A stretch of 64,000 nt of DNA. It comes from Kineosporia babensis (GTDB lineage Bacteria > Actinomycetota > Actinomycetes > Actinomycetales > Kineosporiaceae). The position numbers were made by a program, and so were the translations under genes. The stretch is from assembly GCF_021129305.1 (NCBI RefSeq), contig NZ_JAJOMB010000032.1:1-64000 (forward strand), written 5' to 3'. Under the pieces are notes generated by a model that did no database searches, was not told the origin of the DNA, and worked only from the letters and a program-made list of their open reading frames with translations. This document shows, piece after piece, positions 13,072 through 28,830 of this stretch. How positions within the stretch are numbered: the stretch's first letter is position 1; each line of letters begins with the position of its first letter.

Positions 13072-14430
13072 CCGGAAGGACTGTTCGTCAAGAACCTGGA
13101 GAACGTCCAGGGCGACGAGCGGGATGTCATCCTGTTCTCCACCGGATTCAGCACGAACGAGAAGGGGGTGCTGCCCCGTAACTTCGGCCCACTGGTGTGG
13201 TTCGGTGGCGAACGTCGCTGGAACGTGGCCATCACCCGGGCCCGTCGGCAGGTTCTCGTCTTCAGTTCGTTCGCTCCCAGCAAGCTGAAGGTCGAGGCCA
13301 CGTCCGCGAAGGGAATCCAGGATCTGCGGGCCTATCTCGACATCGCGGCCGGAGACAGCGAGGTGCTCGCCAGCACCGTGGCCTTGGCAGCCGCACCTGA
13401 CAAGCACCGTGAACAGCTGGCCCGAGCGCTGCGGGAGCGGGGCCTGGTGGTGCAGGAGGTCTTCGGCCTTTCGGACTTCCGGGTCGAGCTGGCCCTGGCG
13501 GCGCCGGAGCGTCCCGGGCACTTCGTCGTTGCCGTACTTCTGGACGGTGAGGAGTGGCGCCGGCGGGCAACGGTCAGCGACCGGGACGGGCTGCCGGTCC
13601 AGGTACTGTCGAAGATGCTGGGCTGGCCGGCCGTGGAGCGGGTTTGGCTGCCCGAGTGGCTGGTCGAACCGGAGAACGTTCTCGACCGGCTCGAGGCGGT
13701 CACTCGCGAGGCGGCCCGTGCCCTTCCGGCACCTGTCCACGCAACCCCAGCGCCCTCGTCCTTCATTGGTACCCCCACGAAAACGAACGCCGACTTGCTG
13801 ATCGCCGGGCCGGCGGTGACACCGGCCAAGGCTCCGACGGCCACGCTTCTGCGCCGGATCATCCCGTCCGACCGTGTAATTCCGGGGCAGGAGATCTATT
13901 CGCCCTGGGAGCCCAGGGTGGTCGGAGAACGGAAGGTACTCGACCGGCTCCCGACCGCGCTGCCGGTGGTGCTCGAGTTGATCGAGGAGATCGTCGAGAC
14001 TGAGGGGCCGATCCATCAGGAACGTCTGGCCAAGCTCATCGCTGCGGCCTTCGGCATCAGCCGGCTCATGGGCGGGCGGGCGGAGAAGATCTATGCCGCT
14101 CTGCCGTCCTCGTATTTTCAGGAACCGGGCGAGCCGTTCCTGTGGCCCTCGAAGCTGTCACCGGCGACGTGGACCGGATTCCAGCGCCAGAAGAGCGTCA
14201 AGCCAAGGCCGCTGGAGCAGATCAGTCATCGGGAGATCGGTAACGCGATGGTCGGGATTGCCCGGTTCACGGCTGGGCTTCCCCGGGATCAGCTGCTGCG
14301 GGAGACGCTCGGGGTGTTCGGAGCCCGGCAGATGACCGAGCGGACGGAGAAGCGCTTGCTGGAGTCGCTGGAGGCGTGCCTGCGGCGCGAGCTTCTGATC
14401 GAGCAGCATGGGCTGGTCCTCGTCGATTGA
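13072..14430 (+). pseudogene. C-terminal part of the DUF4011 helicase: last helicase motifs, nuclease-like domain, DUF3320
   Basis: This is in the same frame as the preceding part, separated only by the TGA codon. It opens with FVKNLENVQGDERDVILFS and GGERRWNVAITRARRQVLVF, helicase motifs V and VI. A REase_MTES_1575/Vsr-like module follows (QLARALRERGLVVQEVFGLS, then FRVELALAAPERPG), then a DUF3320 end (LMGGRAEKIYAALPSSYFQ). The usual Asp of the nuclease SxFRIDLAV box appears as Glu (FRVELAL). A separate start could lie at GTG 13168, but it would lose motif V, so an independent protein is unlikely. The stop codon TGA at 14428-14430 is half host, half insertion sequence (GA is the first dinucleotide of the IS). 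Confidence 0.75.
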
Positions 14431-14480
14431 GGTTCCCCCGAAACGGTGGACAGGGGGTTAAGCAGCGTTGGCTGTGCCTG

Positions 14481-15443
14481 TCAGGCTGGCTCAAAGCGGA
14501 TGGGGCTGAGCCCTCCTGCTCCTGAGTGACGACGTTCATGATTGAACCATCTGATCCATTTGTCAACTCCAGCAACGAGTTCCGCCTTCGTGGCGAAGGT
14601 CCGACGGTAGTAGTACTCGTGCTTGAACGTGGACCAGAACGACCCCGCGGCAGCGTTATCCCAGCAGATCCCGGTCTCACCCATCGACCGGAGCAGGTCG
14701 TGCCGGCCGCAGGCGGCCGCGGTCACGGCGCCGGTGAACTCCCCGCCTCGGTCCGAATGCAGGATGGTCTTGGCCACGTTCTGGCCTTCGCGGGTGCGGG
14801 TGGCAACGGCGGCGTCGATGGCGCGGGCGACCATGGGCGCGTCGAAGTGGTCGTCGATGGCGTAGCCCTGGACGCGGCGGGAGTGCCCGTCCCGGATCGC
14901 GCACAGGAACATGTTGCCCTCGCCGCAGGGCAGGTAGGTGATGTCGGTGAACCACGCGGCGTTCAGGTGGCCCTGGTCGAACTGCCGGCCGACCAGGTCG
15001 GGCGGGAACGACGCGTCCGGGTCCTGCACGGTGGTGCGGACTTTGAACGTTCGAGGGCTGATGCCCTCGATCCCGATCTCGGCCATGATCGCCGCGACGG
15101 TCTTGGCGTTCACAACCTCACCGCGATCGCGCAACTTGTCGGTGATCCGTGGGGATCCGTAGGTCCCGTCGGACTCGGCATGAATGTCGAGGATCTTCAC
15201 CGTGAGATCGGCTCGTCGCTGTTGCCTTTGGGTCGGCTCGGATGCGTCACGGCGCTTGCGCCACTCGTAGAAGCCCGATGTGGACACCTTCAGCAATCGG
15301 GCCATGCGCAGCACGGAGAAGCTCTCTGACCGCTGCTGGTCATGCTCGTGTTGAGCTGGCGTGGCGTCGTGCAGGTTTGTCTGCGGGCTGGTGATCTGGG
15401 CAGTTTGTTCGGGTTCTTGCTCGGGGCAGGCGTACTTCGCCAT
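14481..15443 (-). CDS. IS3-family transposase OrfB, catalytic Glu replaced
   Basis: 320 residues. The N-terminal part carries the HTH_21-type linker (SGFYEWRKRRDASEP, TYGSPRITDKLRDRG), the C-terminal part the rve/DDE core. Catalytic Asp residues are visible in WFTDITYLP and ILHSDRGGEF. At the third position the usual N-A-x-A-E-S reads DNAAAGSFWSTFKHEY, with codon GGG at 14645-14643, so the essential Glu is Gly. The related copy at 26.3 kb keeps AAAESFW. The start ATG shares one base with the orfA stop (TGATG), so translation is coupled. With Gly at this position the element is probably unable to move by itself. Confidence 0.85.
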   Translation of the reverse strand: MAKYACPEQEPEQTAQITSPQTNLHDATPAQHEHDQQRSESFSVLRMARLLKVSTSGFYEWRKRRDASEPTQRQQRRADLTVKILDIHAESDGTYGSPRITDKLRDRGEVVNAKTVAAIMAEIGIEGISPRTFKVRTTVQDPDASFPPDLVGRQFDQGHLNAAWFTDITYLPCGEGNMFLCAIRDGHSRRVQGYAIDDHFDAPMVARAIDAAVATRTREGQNVAKTILHSDRGGEFTGAVTAAACGRHDLLRSMGETGICWDNAAAGSFWSTFKHEYYYRRTFATKAELVAGVDKWIRWFNHERRHSGAGGLSPIRFEPA

Positions 15444-22514: not shown

Positions 22515-24170
22515 TTAGCTCATCCGCACGGGTTCATAGCTCGTGGCTTGTTTCGGATCGCCCTCGCCGCGGTAGCGGGGGATTTCCGGGTAGGCGTACA
22601 CCGGTCGTGTCGCGGTGACCTCGCCCAGGGCCACGTCGAAACGCTCCGCGACCATCACCTGCGGCTCCTCGCCGTCTTCGACCCACTTCATCAGTGCTGT
22701 GGTTCCTGCCGCGAGACTCACCCCGGCCCCGGCCCCGATGCAGTAGCCGTGGATATCGCCGTCGCTGAGGAACATTCGGACGAAGGAGGAAGCTTCCTGC
22801 TGACCGCCGGCGCGCTGGACCACCCCGAGATAGAAGTTCAGCACCTCCTGGTAGCGGAGGACCTCATCCTCGATAGCTTGAGTGATGAGAAGCTTGCCGC
22901 CGGAAGCGCGGAAGGACGTGAGGTCATCGTCCGAGTCGATCGCCGCGAGGCGCTGAGCCCCTGTATCGCAGAGGTCCCAGAAGCCATCGAGGGTCAGATC
23001 TTCCCAACTGGCCTCGGGGTCTTCGGCTACCCACCGAACATGATTGACAGCGATCGACGGGGTGACCTTGAGCTCACCCTCAACCTCGGTGAAGAGGACG
23101 CTCCCGACGCCAGGCTTCTCTGGGGAGGTCCAGAACTTGGAGCCAGGTCGCGGCGCAGCGGCCAGCTGCCTGCCGTCCTGGGCCCGGGGCCCGTCCCAGA
23201 TCGCCTGCATGGTCACGGCATCGATCTTGGTCACTTCACCTGCCGTGGTCGGGGTCCCGATCACGGTCTCGGGATCGAACTCGATCGTCTCGGCTGCACT
23301 GAGGAATCCGTCCCGAACCCCGTCGGCACCGTCCAGAGCCTCGAGCACAGCTGCCCGGAAAGCGTCCAGTTTCGCCGGCGGCAGGATGTTGTCGTGCAAT
23401 TTCATCGCCAGCGCAGGCCACAGAATGGCGATGTTGAGCGTATTCCAGTTCATAGCGGGGTCCGAGATCCAGATCCCGTCGAAGTCTCCCGAATGGCGCT
23501 GCGCGGATGCCAGCCCCTGCCGCCCACCGCCGGAACCTCCGACATAGTAGGAGTATTCGGGACCCGTGCCGTACAGGGCCACGATGACGGCCTTGGACAC
23601 CTCTGCCATGTCGTGGGTGCTGCGATGAACCCAGTTCTCGATCAGATCCCAGTCCAGTGTGCCGGAGTCCTTGCGCAGAGCCCAGTCATTGACCCGGTCA
23701 TCCACGTTTCCCGCGTTCGTTGCAGCAGTCACAAATCCGTTGCGCAGAGCGACGGGCATCGTCATCGCCCGGCATGTCGGCACTTCGAACCACAGCGGCC
23801 CGGTGAGGCTTCCAGCACCCCCGGTGGCGAGGAACCGGCCGTTCCAGGCGAGAGGAGCCCACACGTAGAACGTCACGGTGTGCCCGCCAGGGGCGCGCTG
23901 CTCGATCCGAATGTCGCAGAACGCCGGCAGGTTGCCGATCCGCGGCGCCGCCTCGGCTGTATGGACGGGCTGCAGGGGCGAGGCTGGAACAGTGAACTCC
24001 CCGCTGTGATTCACCGAGGCCGACGTGACTGTGAGGCCCTCGAACCCTGCCAGCGCCTCCTGGAGCACCTCAACCGAACAACGCCGGGCCACCTCCTCGT
24101 CAGCCGAGAGGCTATCGGTGACCACCCACTGCGTCAGGCCAGATTTGCCCAAATGAGGCTTGCGTGCCAT
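22515..24170 (-). CDS. Tannase/feruloyl-esterase-family hydrolase
   Basis: 551 residues from ATG 24170 (MARKPHLGKSGLTQW); a further ATG at 24215 is possible. No clear signal peptide, so it is probably cytosolic. The nucleophile elbow is YYVGGSGGGRQGL (G-x-S-x-G-G). The fold also shows FLATGGAGSLTG near the N-terminus, and the C-terminal DGDIHGYCIGAGAG carries the catalytic His. It would cleave aromatic or phenolic esters, with substrate unknown. The TetR at 24410 diverges from it across a perfect palindrome. A truncated paralogue lies at 25452. Confidence 0.82.
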   Translation of the reverse strand: MARKPHLGKSGLTQWVVTDSLSADEEVARRCSVEVLQEALAGFEGLTVTSASVNHSGEFTVPASPLQPVHTAEAAPRIGNLPAFCDIRIEQRAPGGHTVTFYVWAPLAWNGRFLATGGAGSLTGPLWFEVPTCRAMTMPVALRNGFVTAATNAGNVDDRVNDWALRKDSGTLDWDLIENWVHRSTHDMAEVSKAVIVALYGTGPEYSYYVGGSGGGRQGLASAQRHSGDFDGIWISDPAMNWNTLNIAILWPALAMKLHDNILPPAKLDAFRAAVLEALDGADGVRDGFLSAAETIEFDPETVIGTPTTAGEVTKIDAVTMQAIWDGPRAQDGRQLAAAPRPGSKFWTSPEKPGVGSVLFTEVEGELKVTPSIAVNHVRWVAEDPEASWEDLTLDGFWDLCDTGAQRLAAIDSDDDLTSFRASGGKLLITQAIEDEVLRYQEVLNFYLGVVQRAGGQQEASSFVRMFLSDGDIHGYCIGAGAGVSLAAGTTALMKWVEDGEEPQVMVAERFDVALGEVTATRPVYAYPEIPRYRGEGDPKQATSYEPVRMS

Positions 24171-24346
24171 TCGTTCACATTCCCTTCGTCGACCACGAGA
24201 TCCACGATGACCCACCGTTCGATGCGCCCGGGCCCCTCCGGGGAGGGCGTCGCGGTCGTGGGGGCGACGCCCAAACCTGGGGTCGGAGCTGCCCCGGTGC
24301 GGTCTCGGTCGCTCGCTACCTGCCGGAACGTTGGCCCCGGCAAGAG

Positions 24347-25451: not shown

Positions 25452-25817
25452 TCAGTTCCGCTCTGCCCGAACGTAACTGGCAGCCTCGGCTGGGTCACCC
25501 GAACCCGAGTAGACCGTGACCGAGGGGTAGGAGAACAGCGGGCGAGTGGCCACGACCTGGCCCGCTTGAGCGTCGAAGCGCTCGGCAATCAACTCCTGCG
25601 GCGCCTCGTCGTGCTCCACCCACCGAATCAGGGCCATCGTGCCGTCGGCAAGTGTCAGGCCGGGCCCGGGCCCGGTGCAGGAGCCGTGGATGTCACCGGC
25701 CGAGTGGAATAACCGGAAGAACTCGGAGGCTGCTTCCAGACCCCCTGACTTCTCGACGACCTCCTCGAAGTAGCTGGTCGCCATCGGGAAGAGCACCACC
25801 TCGTCGGCGGGTGGCCT
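25452..25817 (-). pseudogene. C-terminal 120 residues of a second tannase-family gene
   Basis: Aligns with the end of the tannase at 22515: SAGDIHGSCTGPGPGLTLAD versus SDGDIHGYCIGAGAGVSLAA, then ERFDAQAGQVVATRPLFSYP versus ERFDVALGEVTATRPVYAYP. The N-terminal three quarters, including the Ser elbow, are missing. Similarity stops at about 25817, where IS3 transposase sequence begins, so the loss is linked to that insertion. Confidence 0.75.
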
Positions 25818-25827
25818 GGCTGCCTGA

Positions 25828-26529
25828 ACGTGGTGAGGTCGTGAATCCTAAGACCGTCGCGGCGATCATGGCCGAGATCGGGATTGAGGGCATCAGCCCT
25901 GGCACGTTCAAAGTCCGCACGACAGTCCAGGATCCAGACGCAGCCTTCCCGGCCGACCTGGTGATCTGGCAGTTCGACCCAGGACGATTGAACGCCGCGT
26001 GGTTCACCCGACATCACCGACCTGACCTGCGGTGAAGGCGACATGTTCCTCTGCGCGATACGGGACGGGCACTCGCGCCGCGTCCTGGGCTACGCCATCG
26101 ACGACCATTTCGACGCACCTATGGTCGCCCGGGCCATCGACGCCGCCGTGACCACCCGCACCGCCCGAAGGCCACACCGTGGCCAAGACCATCCTGCACT
26201 CGGACCGAGGCGGGAAGTTCACCGGCTCTGTGACGGCGGCCGCCCTTGGGCGGCACGACCTGCGCCGGTCGATGGGTGAGACCGGGATCTTCTGGGATAA
26301 CGCTGCCGCGGAGTCGTTCTGGTCCACGTTCAAGCACGAGTACTACTACCGCCGGACCTTCGCCACGAAAGCGGAACTCGTTACTGGAGTTGACACATGG
26401 ATCCACTGGTTTCAATCATGGACGTCGTCACTCTGGAGCAGGAGGGCTCAGCCCCATCCGCTACGAACAGACCCTGACAGGCACAGCCAAGGCTGCTTAG
26501 ACCCCTGTCCACCGTTTCGGGGGAACCTC
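25828..26529 (+). mobile_element. Degraded IS3-family fragment (orfB 3' part and right end)
   Basis: From RGEVVNPKTVAAIMAEIGIE onward the plus strand encodes OrfB related to that of 14481-15443 but broken by at least three frameshifts (near 26020, 26165 and 26400). The DDE residues HSDRGGKF and AAAESFW are still readable. It ends with the same terminal sequence, complement of GAGGTTCCCCCGAAACGG, at 26529. orfA and the other end are missing. Confidence 0.8.
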
Positions 26530-26627
26530 CATCGGCCAGGGTGTAGCCGATGCAGGTCTTCGTGCAGCAGTCGATCACGGTCGCCAGGAACACCCATCCC
26601 TGCCCCGTGGGAATGTAGGTGATGTCC
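26530..26627 (-). pseudogene. Middle piece of a second IS3-type transposase, flank of the group II intron
   Basis: The minus strand reads DITYIPTGQGWVFLATVIDC followed by CTKTCIGYTLAD, the first catalytic block of an IS3/rve integrase. It is cut on one side by the IS fragment ending at 26529 and on the other by the group II intron at 26628. Its upstream half continues at 28574-28830. Confidence 0.75.
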
Positions 26628-28573
26628 GTGTGCCACGAGCACAGAGAGTGAGGTCAGTGATGAGGTAGGTGGCCTCGTTCGATGTGGTGCTGCGCAGGTG
26701 ATGAAGGTTTTGTGGCCCTTCGGGGCCGTTCTGCGAGGGACGGCTTCAAACCGCCTCGAGCTGCGTTGGCTGAAGACCGTCGTGGTGAGCGTCGAGGAAA
26801 AGGCGCACGAGATGCGTCAGGTGGGGACCGAGAAGATGAGCGCAAGCGAATCACTGCTGACGTGCCGAAAACCTATCAAGTGGCATCAGAACCGCGGATG
26901 TTGATATGCCCGCGGGATGAGTCTGGCGGATATCTCGCTTACTGGCCAGGCGGTGCCCGGCATGGAGGTGACATGAGCTCGGTCTGCGGCGTCTGCGTGG
27001 AACGTGGGAAGGCGTGTCCGGAAAATCGGAGCCTGGGTTGAGTTCTGGAGAGGGAGAGTTCCAAGCGAAACGAAAACGTGAGGAACGGAGTACCGTCGCC
27101 GGGCGCGCATTCGGACCGGCCCATAGTAGTGATGAACGGCCTGTAATGGGTCGGGAGCGAAGGGGTCGGGTCGTTCGTGACTGTGTTCGTCCGATCAACC
27201 GGGAAGCCCGGAAGGGCTGGCCGGGAGGAGTCGCGTGGACGAGTTGAAATCGTCAGGCAAGTCGTTCGATATTTCCAAGTGGGAAGTGTGGGAGGCATGG
27301 AAGAAGGTCAAGGCCAACAGGGGAGCGCCAGGCGTTGACGGCTGCACTGTGGACGATTTCGAGAAGGACCTGAAGAACAATCTGTATCGGGTCTGGAACC
27401 GGATGTCCTCGGGCAGCTACTTTCCGCCACCTGTGCGTGCGGTGGAGATACCGAAGGCGCATGGGAACGGGGTTCGGGTCCTTGGGGTTCCGACCGTGGC
27501 TGACCGGGTCGCTCAGACGGTGGTGGCAAGCAGGCTGGAGGCGGAGGTCGAGGCGATCTTTCATCCGGACTCCTATGGCTATCGTCCTGGGCGATCCGCG
27601 CTGGATGCGGTTGGGGTGTGTCGCACGCGTAGTTGGCGCTGGGACTGGGTTGTCGATCTCGACATCGAGAAGTTCTTCGACAGCGTCCCGTGGGATCTGC
27701 TCCTGAAAGCGGTGGAAGCGCATACCGACCAGCCGTGGGTTCTGCTCTATGTGCGGCGATGGCTTGCCGCGCCGATGCAGTCCTCGGACGGGGCGGTGCG
27801 CCAGCGGGATCGTGGAACCCCTCAGGGGTCAGCGGTTTCGCCGGTGTTGGCGAATCTGTTCCTGCACTATGCGTTTGACGCCTGGATGGCTCGTGAGCAT
27901 CCGGGCGTTGCGTTCGAGCGCTACGTGGACGACGCGGTGGTGCACTGCGTCAGCGAACGCCAGGCCCGCAAGATGGTCCAGGCGATTTCGGAACGGATGG
28001 TCGAGGTCGGGCTGCGTCTGCACCCGGCCAAGACGAGGATCGTGTACTGCAAGGACTCCAACCGGCCGGGAACCTACCCGCAGAAGGAGTTCACGTTCTT
28101 GGGGTTCACGTTCCGTCCGCGCAAGTCGCGCAACAGAGCCGGCGTCAGCTTCGTCCGGTTCCTGCCCGCGATCAGCAAGGACGCCCTGAAAAGAATCAGT
28201 CGGCAGGTCCGTTCATGGCGGATCCACCGGCGCACCGGTCAATCCTTCGCCCAGATCGCGCAGGCCATCAACCCGGTCGTGCGGGGCTGGATGAACTACT
28301 ACGGTGCGTTCTATCGCACCGAGCTCCATGGTCTCCTGCGGCGCATCAATACCTACCTGGTGCGCTGGATCCGACGGAAGTACAAGCGGCTGGCCGGTCT
28401 TCGCAAAGCCCTGGCATGTCTGAACGGGATCTCCCAGAGATATCCCCGGATGTTCGTGCACTGGCAGTGGACCGCGAAAGCCTGGTGACCAGAACGACAA
28501 GAGCCCGGTGACGGGAGACTGTCACGCCGGGACCTGAGGGAGCCGGGGGCTGAGATGCCCCCGGCTACCCGCC
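26628..28573 (+). mobile_element. Group II intron, full length, antisense to an IS3-type transposase gene
   Basis: The 5' end GTGTG (26628) fits the GTGYG consensus. At the 3' end, domain V is CCCGGTGAC (28504-28512), loop, GTCACGCCGGG with a two-base GC bulge. Domain VI is GGGAGCCGGGGGC, loop TGAGAT, GCCCCCGGCT-A-CCC with bulged branch-point A at 28567. Joining 26627 to 28574 restores the transposase frame across the junction (LVG-DITYIP), which supports these limits to within a few bases. The 600 bases before the ORF carry the structured domains I-IV, for example GGCCCTTCGGGGCC and the run GGAGCGAAGGGG. The transposase is on the opposite strand, so splicing cannot repair its mRNA. Confidence 0.8.
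27235..28488 (+). CDS. ltrA: Group II intron reverse transcriptase/maturase
   Basis: 417 residues from GTG 27235 with GGGAGGAG seven bases upstream. RT motifs in order: NRGAPGVDGCTVDDF, VLGVPTVADRVAQ, FHPDSYGYRPGRSALDA, VVDLDIEKFFDSVPWD, RGTPQGSAVSPVLANLFL and the catalytic YVDD at 230-233. The maturase part (GIIM) shows VVRGWMNYYGAFYRTELHG and ends FVHWQWTAKAW. There is no HNH endonuclease domain, so target cutting would rely on other means, as in En-minus intron classes. All catalytic residues are present, so the intron may be active. Confidence 0.92.
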   Translation: MDELKSSGKSFDISKWEVWEAWKKVKANRGAPGVDGCTVDDFEKDLKNNLYRVWNRMSSGSYFPPPVRAVEIPKAHGNGVRVLGVPTVADRVAQTVVASRLEAEVEAIFHPDSYGYRPGRSALDAVGVCRTRSWRWDWVVDLDIEKFFDSVPWDLLLKAVEAHTDQPWVLLYVRRWLAAPMQSSDGAVRQRDRGTPQGSAVSPVLANLFLHYAFDAWMAREHPGVAFERYVDDAVVHCVSERQARKMVQAISERMVEVGLRLHPAKTRIVYCKDSNRPGTYPQKEFTFLGFTFRPRKSRNRAGVSFVRFLPAISKDALKRISRQVRSWRIHRRTGQSFAQIAQAINPVVRGWMNYYGAFYRTELHGLLRRINTYLVRWIRRKYKRLAGLRKALACLNGISQRYPRMFVHWQWTAKAW

Positions 28574-28830
28574 CCGACGAGTTTCATTCCCGGCGCGGGC
28601 GCGGTGAAATCGCGTCGGACCAGGTCCGGGACTGCGCAGGCGTCGCCGGTGATCGTGGTGACCGGCCGGAACGGGCGGGACTGGCCTCCAGGCCCAGCTC
28701 GCGCATCAGGTCTCTGACCAGCTCAGGACCGGCAGGCACGCTCATCCGGGCCAGCTCGGCCTGACCCGCCGGTAGCCGTAGGTGGCGTCAGAATCCTCGA
28801 AGATCTGGGTGATGATCACCTTCGAGCCCG
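28574..28830 (-). pseudogene. Upstream piece of the IS3-type transposase split by the intron
   Basis: Minus-strand peptides SKVIITQIFEDSDATYGYRR, ELARMSVPAGPELVRDLMRE and RDFTAPAPGMKLVG run up to the intron boundary and are continued by DITYIPTG on its other side. Two or more frameshifts lie inside (for example near 28770 and 28680). It is a dead transposase; orfA is not found. Confidence 0.7.

Follow-up and report, generated by a model that had tools for sequence, protein, structure and literature searches.

The window analysed here (the whole 64,000-nucleotide stretch of the Kineosporia babensis contig NZ_JAJOMB010000032.1) carries a group II intron lying in reverse within a transposase gene, which raises the question of where such an element begins and ends, how it reached a gene that it could not repair by splicing, and whether its orientation is an accident of this single copy. 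An initial annotation had proposed a complete intron at 26628-28573, regarded its antisense position as unusual and pointed out that its last two bases, CC, do not fit the usual AY. Our analyses indicate that this element is very probably a mobile group II intron of class D (RmInt1-like, IIB) that entered an IS3-family transposase gene by retrohoming.

Organization of the intron and its surroundings

The main features of the locus are as follows:

26628..28573 (+), complete group II intron of 1946 nt, class D (IIB-like), GTGTG...CC
26703..26822 (+), ribozyme domain I core, Rfam RF01999 group-II-D1D4-2 (93.6 bits, full model)
27235..28488 (+), intron-encoded protein of 417 aa with a GTG start, RT (YVDD) and maturase X domains, without an endonuclease domain
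28499..28573 (+), domains V and VI up to the 3' end, Rfam RF00029 Intron_gpII (44.4 bits, full model)
28574..28803 (-), upstream half (...GMKLVG) of the host IS3 transposase remnant, with a frameshift further upstream
26532..26627 (-), downstream half (DITYIP...) of the host IS3 transposase remnant, truncated at 26532
25826..26540 (+), neighbouring IS3-family fragment abutting the truncated host IS, in the same direction as the intron

The matches to domain I and to domains V and VI, together with an intact RT/maturase frame, bear out the proposal of a complete group II intron. Its 5' end at 26628 reads GTGTG, which fits GUGYG, and the D5-D6 fold is more stable than expected from shuffled sequences (z = -5.1). 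A lone bulged A in this fold, the putative branch point, lies at 28567, 7 bases before the intron 3' end. The features that define a group II intron, namely the 5' GUGYG, a domain V, and a domain VI whose bulged A is spaced by about 7 bases from the 3' end, were thus all found.

Profile searches matched the 417-aa protein with TIGR04416 (410 bits), RVT_1 and GIIM. Among Pfam families, RVT_1 and GIIM scored above their cut-offs and RdRP_1 below, and no endonuclease family was matched, as is characteristic of class D. The protein is 53% identical to that of RmInt1, and 74-80% identical to those of the relatives sharing its insertion site (see below). Its YVDD motif is not unusual, since YVDD occurred in 23 of the fetched loci, YADD in 36 and YCDD in 18, with a few loci carrying more than one of these. 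In an RT/maturase tree, inferred by a quick method with few references from other classes, the protein grouped with RmInt1, as expected of class D (IIB3). The element is thus a bacterial mobile intron of an already known type, the RmInt1-like group II introns of class D.

The intron is inserted antisense in the host transposase, at the codon boundary G|DITY, and the Asp beside the insertion (GDITY) is what we take to be the first residue of the IS3 transposase DDE triad. The antisense position reported earlier was confirmed, and the host could be assigned to the IS3 family. As had also been proposed, splicing would be of no help to the host gene, because an antisense intron cannot rescue the transposase. 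Excision would in any case restore no transposase, since the host IS3 is both truncated (26532) and frameshifted.

Several other elements were observed around the intron and in the rest of the genome. The neighbouring fragment at 25826-26540 belongs to another IS3-family element, of which a second copy, 88.5% identical, lies at 14418-15128 of the window. A C-terminal tannase/feruloyl esterase fragment at 25452-25799 (-) is 49% identical to the end of a full-length tannase-like gene at 22515-24215 (-). On a second contig of this genome (C31; L002, 1497-1592), a related class D intron is represented by a 96-base 3' remnant that is 87.5% identical, includes the tail of the ORF and ends in ...CCCGAC, hence in AC. 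A 36-aa stretch beside it had no Pfam match; by our own reading, its flanks look like an ISL3-type transposase interrupted in antisense. A group II intron of another class was found on contig C52 (L003, 1-1806; domain V, 53.3 bits), in sense and with an IS3 OrfB-like frame directly downstream; its 5' part runs off the contig end.

Intron borders and the 3' end

Removal of 26628-28573 rejoined the minus-strand frame as ...PDLVRRDFTAPAPGMKLVG|DITYIPTGQGWVFLATVIDCC... (...GMKLVG|DITYIP...), and the resulting transposase peptide matched Pfam rve with 33.6 bits (cut-off 32.6), a threshold that the downstream half alone (27.9) failed to reach. Empty sites were found elsewhere. Around the junction, an uninterrupted IS3 transposase on an Embleya plasmid, TGTAGGTGATGTCC|CCGACGAG, does not differ from the joined window flanks, and an empty IS3 copy of Pimelobacter could be aligned to these flanks over 227 bases (79.7%) crossing the junction. 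Both have the junction that had been proposed. Because of a C run, this comparison allows a 2-base slide, with 26626-28571, 26627-28572 and 26628-28573 all producing the same junction. The slide was settled as 26628-28573 by the GUGYG start, by the matching start in relatives and by EBS3-IBS3 covariation. In 33 of the 35 introns with both ends parsed, where 12.9 were expected, the base in the intron column at window 26965 can form a Watson-Crick pair with the exon base directly after the intron, and no comparable column was found in this set at any other offset from -3 to +4. The Rfam D5-D6 covariance model stops at 28573 as well. With three independent tests in agreement (D5-D6 model, empty site and EBS3-IBS3), the predicted ends of the intron are 26628 and 28573, exactly as initially annotated.

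AY is the general 3' consensus of group II introns (PMC4424553), and an end placed elsewhere, for instance at ...CTAC (28568), would conform to it. Such an end would leave five surplus bases in the transposase frame, break the match to the empty sites and abolish the EBS3-IBS3 covariation. An end at CTAC is hence extremely improbable, and this candidate was dropped on the empty-site and EBS3 evidence. The CC dinucleotide is therefore real and does depart from AY, but it is nothing special. RmInt1, the model class D intron, has a CC 3' end followed by CC in the exon (CC|CC) (PMC4238363), and two S. meliloti loci with the published RmInt1 IBS1 (GATGAGA; L102 and L104) read CTACTCACC|CC. Across 57 parsed introns, the window one included, the 3' dinucleotides were AC (37), CC (13), GC (6) and CT (1), most of these ends being set by motif and not by an empty site. 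As AY is a consensus and no strict definition, a CC end does not disqualify the element as a group II intron.

Four of the nearest, site-sharing relatives (L006, L007, L008 and L009) end in AC, so that the penultimate C of the window intron looks like a local change. Its domain V carries GGGACC versus mostly GGUUC or GGAUC in relatives, which places an A.C mismatch across from the catalytic triad. The same GGGACC letters occur in one further intron (L020), and neither this substitution nor the CC end was seen in the nearest relatives.

Target recognition

The elements proposed to pair the intron with its target are listed below:

26615..26620 (+), IBS2 (GTAGGT, -13 to -8), 5' flank
26622..26627 (+), IBS1 (ATGTCC, -6 to -1), 5' flank
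26871..26876 (+), EBS2 (ACCTAT), pairing 6/6 with IBS2
26902..26907 (+), EBS1 at the aligned loop position (TGATAT), pairing 5/6 with IBS1, mismatch at -1
26965 (+), EBS3 (G), pairing with IBS3
28574 (+), IBS3 (C), first base of the 3' flank

The EBS1 and EBS2 assignments are based on comparisons in which each intron was paired with its own or with shuffled partners. EBS1 and IBS1 from the same intron had 67 paired positions over 12 introns (53.5 +/- 2.4 with shuffled partners), and EBS2 and IBS2 had 71 over 14 introns (60.8 +/- 2.2). A compensatory change on both sides was observed in the Acrocarpospora relative, with IBS2 ATACGT and EBS2 ACGTAT. In the window intron and its site-sharing relatives, the aligned EBS1 position pairs from -6 to -2 only, the -1 mismatch occurring throughout the subclade. 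The placement of EBS1 is somewhat uncertain, since an alternative register slightly upstream in the window (GGATGT, 26896-26901) pairs 6/6 with IBS1. When folded alone, the EBS1/EBS2 region did no better than shuffled sequences. The window intron thus combines a 6/6 EBS2 pairing, an EBS1 pairing of 5/6 (6/6 in the alternative register) and a Watson-Crick EBS3, and the covariation at EBS1, EBS2 and EBS3 offers a usable target-recognition rule for an actinobacterial intron lineage.

An antisense, site-sharing subclade

The antisense orientation had been viewed as an oddity, a point that has to be revisited. Antisense introns were likewise found in divergent IS3 transposases of Micromonospora (L006), Acrocarpospora (L008) and Streptomyces (L009), each inserted at the homologous base, between the Gly and Asp codons of GDITY. 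Two other members, each with one flank, agree with this IS3 site: Streptomyces L081 (5' flank) and Kitasatospora L007 (3' flank). With the window intron, these five group together in a single clade of the RT tree (SH-aLRT 94), which is nested in a 63-row group containing RmInt1 (support 100) and set apart from GsI-IIC, the E. rectale intron, TeI4h and L003. All six have the IS3 site, the antisense orientation and YVDD in common. Antisense insertion appears from these flanks to be a habit of the subclade, and no oddity of the window copy. Elsewhere in class D, L050 is inserted antisense in an ISAzo13 transposase, and sense insertions in transposase-like frames were found for L012, L042, L047, L048, L074 and RmInt1.

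Other class D introns were observed at codons for catalytic motifs. Those of L042, L047 and L079 lie at VDEK codons of IS630-like transposases, the hosts of L042 and L047 having weak Pfam support and being read as such by eye. Others are found in a twintron-like arrangement at YADD codons of other reverse transcriptases (L044, L045 and L052, from their 5' flanks, and L086, around 107). L086 was the first S. meliloti match considered as RmInt1, but turned out to be this nested class D intron. These examples suggest that catalytic-motif codons are a recurrent target choice of class D introns.

A search for the occupied-junction pattern in 396 genomes from the order and 396 from the phylum matched only the window, indicating that the occupied IS3 site is rare in those samples. 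No description of this IS3-site lineage was found among the papers available to the search, and the antisense, site-sharing subclade can be considered modestly new.

Probable retrohoming, mobility and present state of the copy

In the retrohoming scenario, the excised intron RNA and its RT/maturase would recognise about 20 bases on the antisense strand of the transposase gene via EBS2-IBS2, EBS1-IBS1 and EBS3-IBS3, and reverse splicing would take place at the codon boundary beside the first Asp of the catalytic DDE triad. RmInt1 uses replication-fork priming (PMC5894124); by analogy, and with no endonuclease, the cDNA would be copied here from a primer at the replication fork. As the recognised sequence is on the antisense strand, insertions of the subclade would be antisense. 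The transposase copy would be disrupted with no rescue by splicing, and the intron would persist as a retroelement. The anatomy, borders, empty site, EBS/IBS covariation and site-sharing clade are the parts of this explanation read from sequence, while the replication-fork route (taken from RmInt1), the past mobility and the present activity of the copy are deduced. We tentatively propose, as a reading that falls a little short of being probable, that the first-Asp codon region of IS3 transposases, on its antisense strand, is the specialised target of an actinobacterial class D subclade, which moves among divergent IS3 elements by EBS-IBS co-change and disables transposases that splicing could not rescue.

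The six members form a single clade, which could also have arisen if a single ancient IS3 element had been inherited vertically together with its intron, with no repeated homing. The host transposases of these members clearly differ, the Acrocarpospora intron changed its IBS2 and EBS2 together, and empty related IS3 copies exist elsewhere; all three argue against common descent of the whole assembly, which we regard as unlikely. Repeated homing into this site may instead account for the pattern.

Whether the window copy is still active is a separate issue. Two to three copies per genome in some relatives (L012/L013; L024-L026) show the mobility of this kind of intron, but the genome of K. babensis has a single full copy and hence no direct sign of recent mobility. 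The truncated host IS, the 3' CC and the domain V A.C mismatch suggest that this copy may be weakened. Taken further, these observations might describe a dead relic, an old insertion now unable to splice or move, which would be compatible with the class D identity and differ only on present activity. The truncation at 26532, the frameshift, the single full copy, and the penultimate A to C change and mismatch absent from the nearest relatives are all consistent with it. Against this, the 417-aa frame is uninterrupted and retains all its motifs, D5-D6 and D1 score above the Rfam thresholds, and RmInt1 is mobile despite an identical CC end (PMC4238363, PMC5894124). A relic is possible, if somewhat doubtful, and would leave untouched the entry by retrohoming that we favour.

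Comparison with known systems

The E.c.I4 intron of E. coli, which homes into IS3-like transposases (PMC3522654), provides a precedent and shares with the window intron the use of IS3-family transposases as homing sites, a comparison drawn from the description in that paper. Also among the closest known systems is the class D / IIB3 intron RmInt1, found in ISRm2011-2 of Sinorhizobium meliloti. RmInt1 and the window intron share an endonuclease-minus RT/maturase of similar size (419 aa in RmInt1 vs 417), the RT clade, the CC|CC junction, a transposase host and insertion at catalytic-motif codons, and differ in their EBS/IBS sequences. RmInt1 is inserted in sense in its IS630-family transposase, and its splicing could therefore restore the host gene, whereas the window intron runs antisense to the IS3 transposase that hosts it. 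The latter provides a clean case of a mobile intron unable to repay its host gene by splicing, and fits the view of endonuclease-minus bacterial introns as retroelements.
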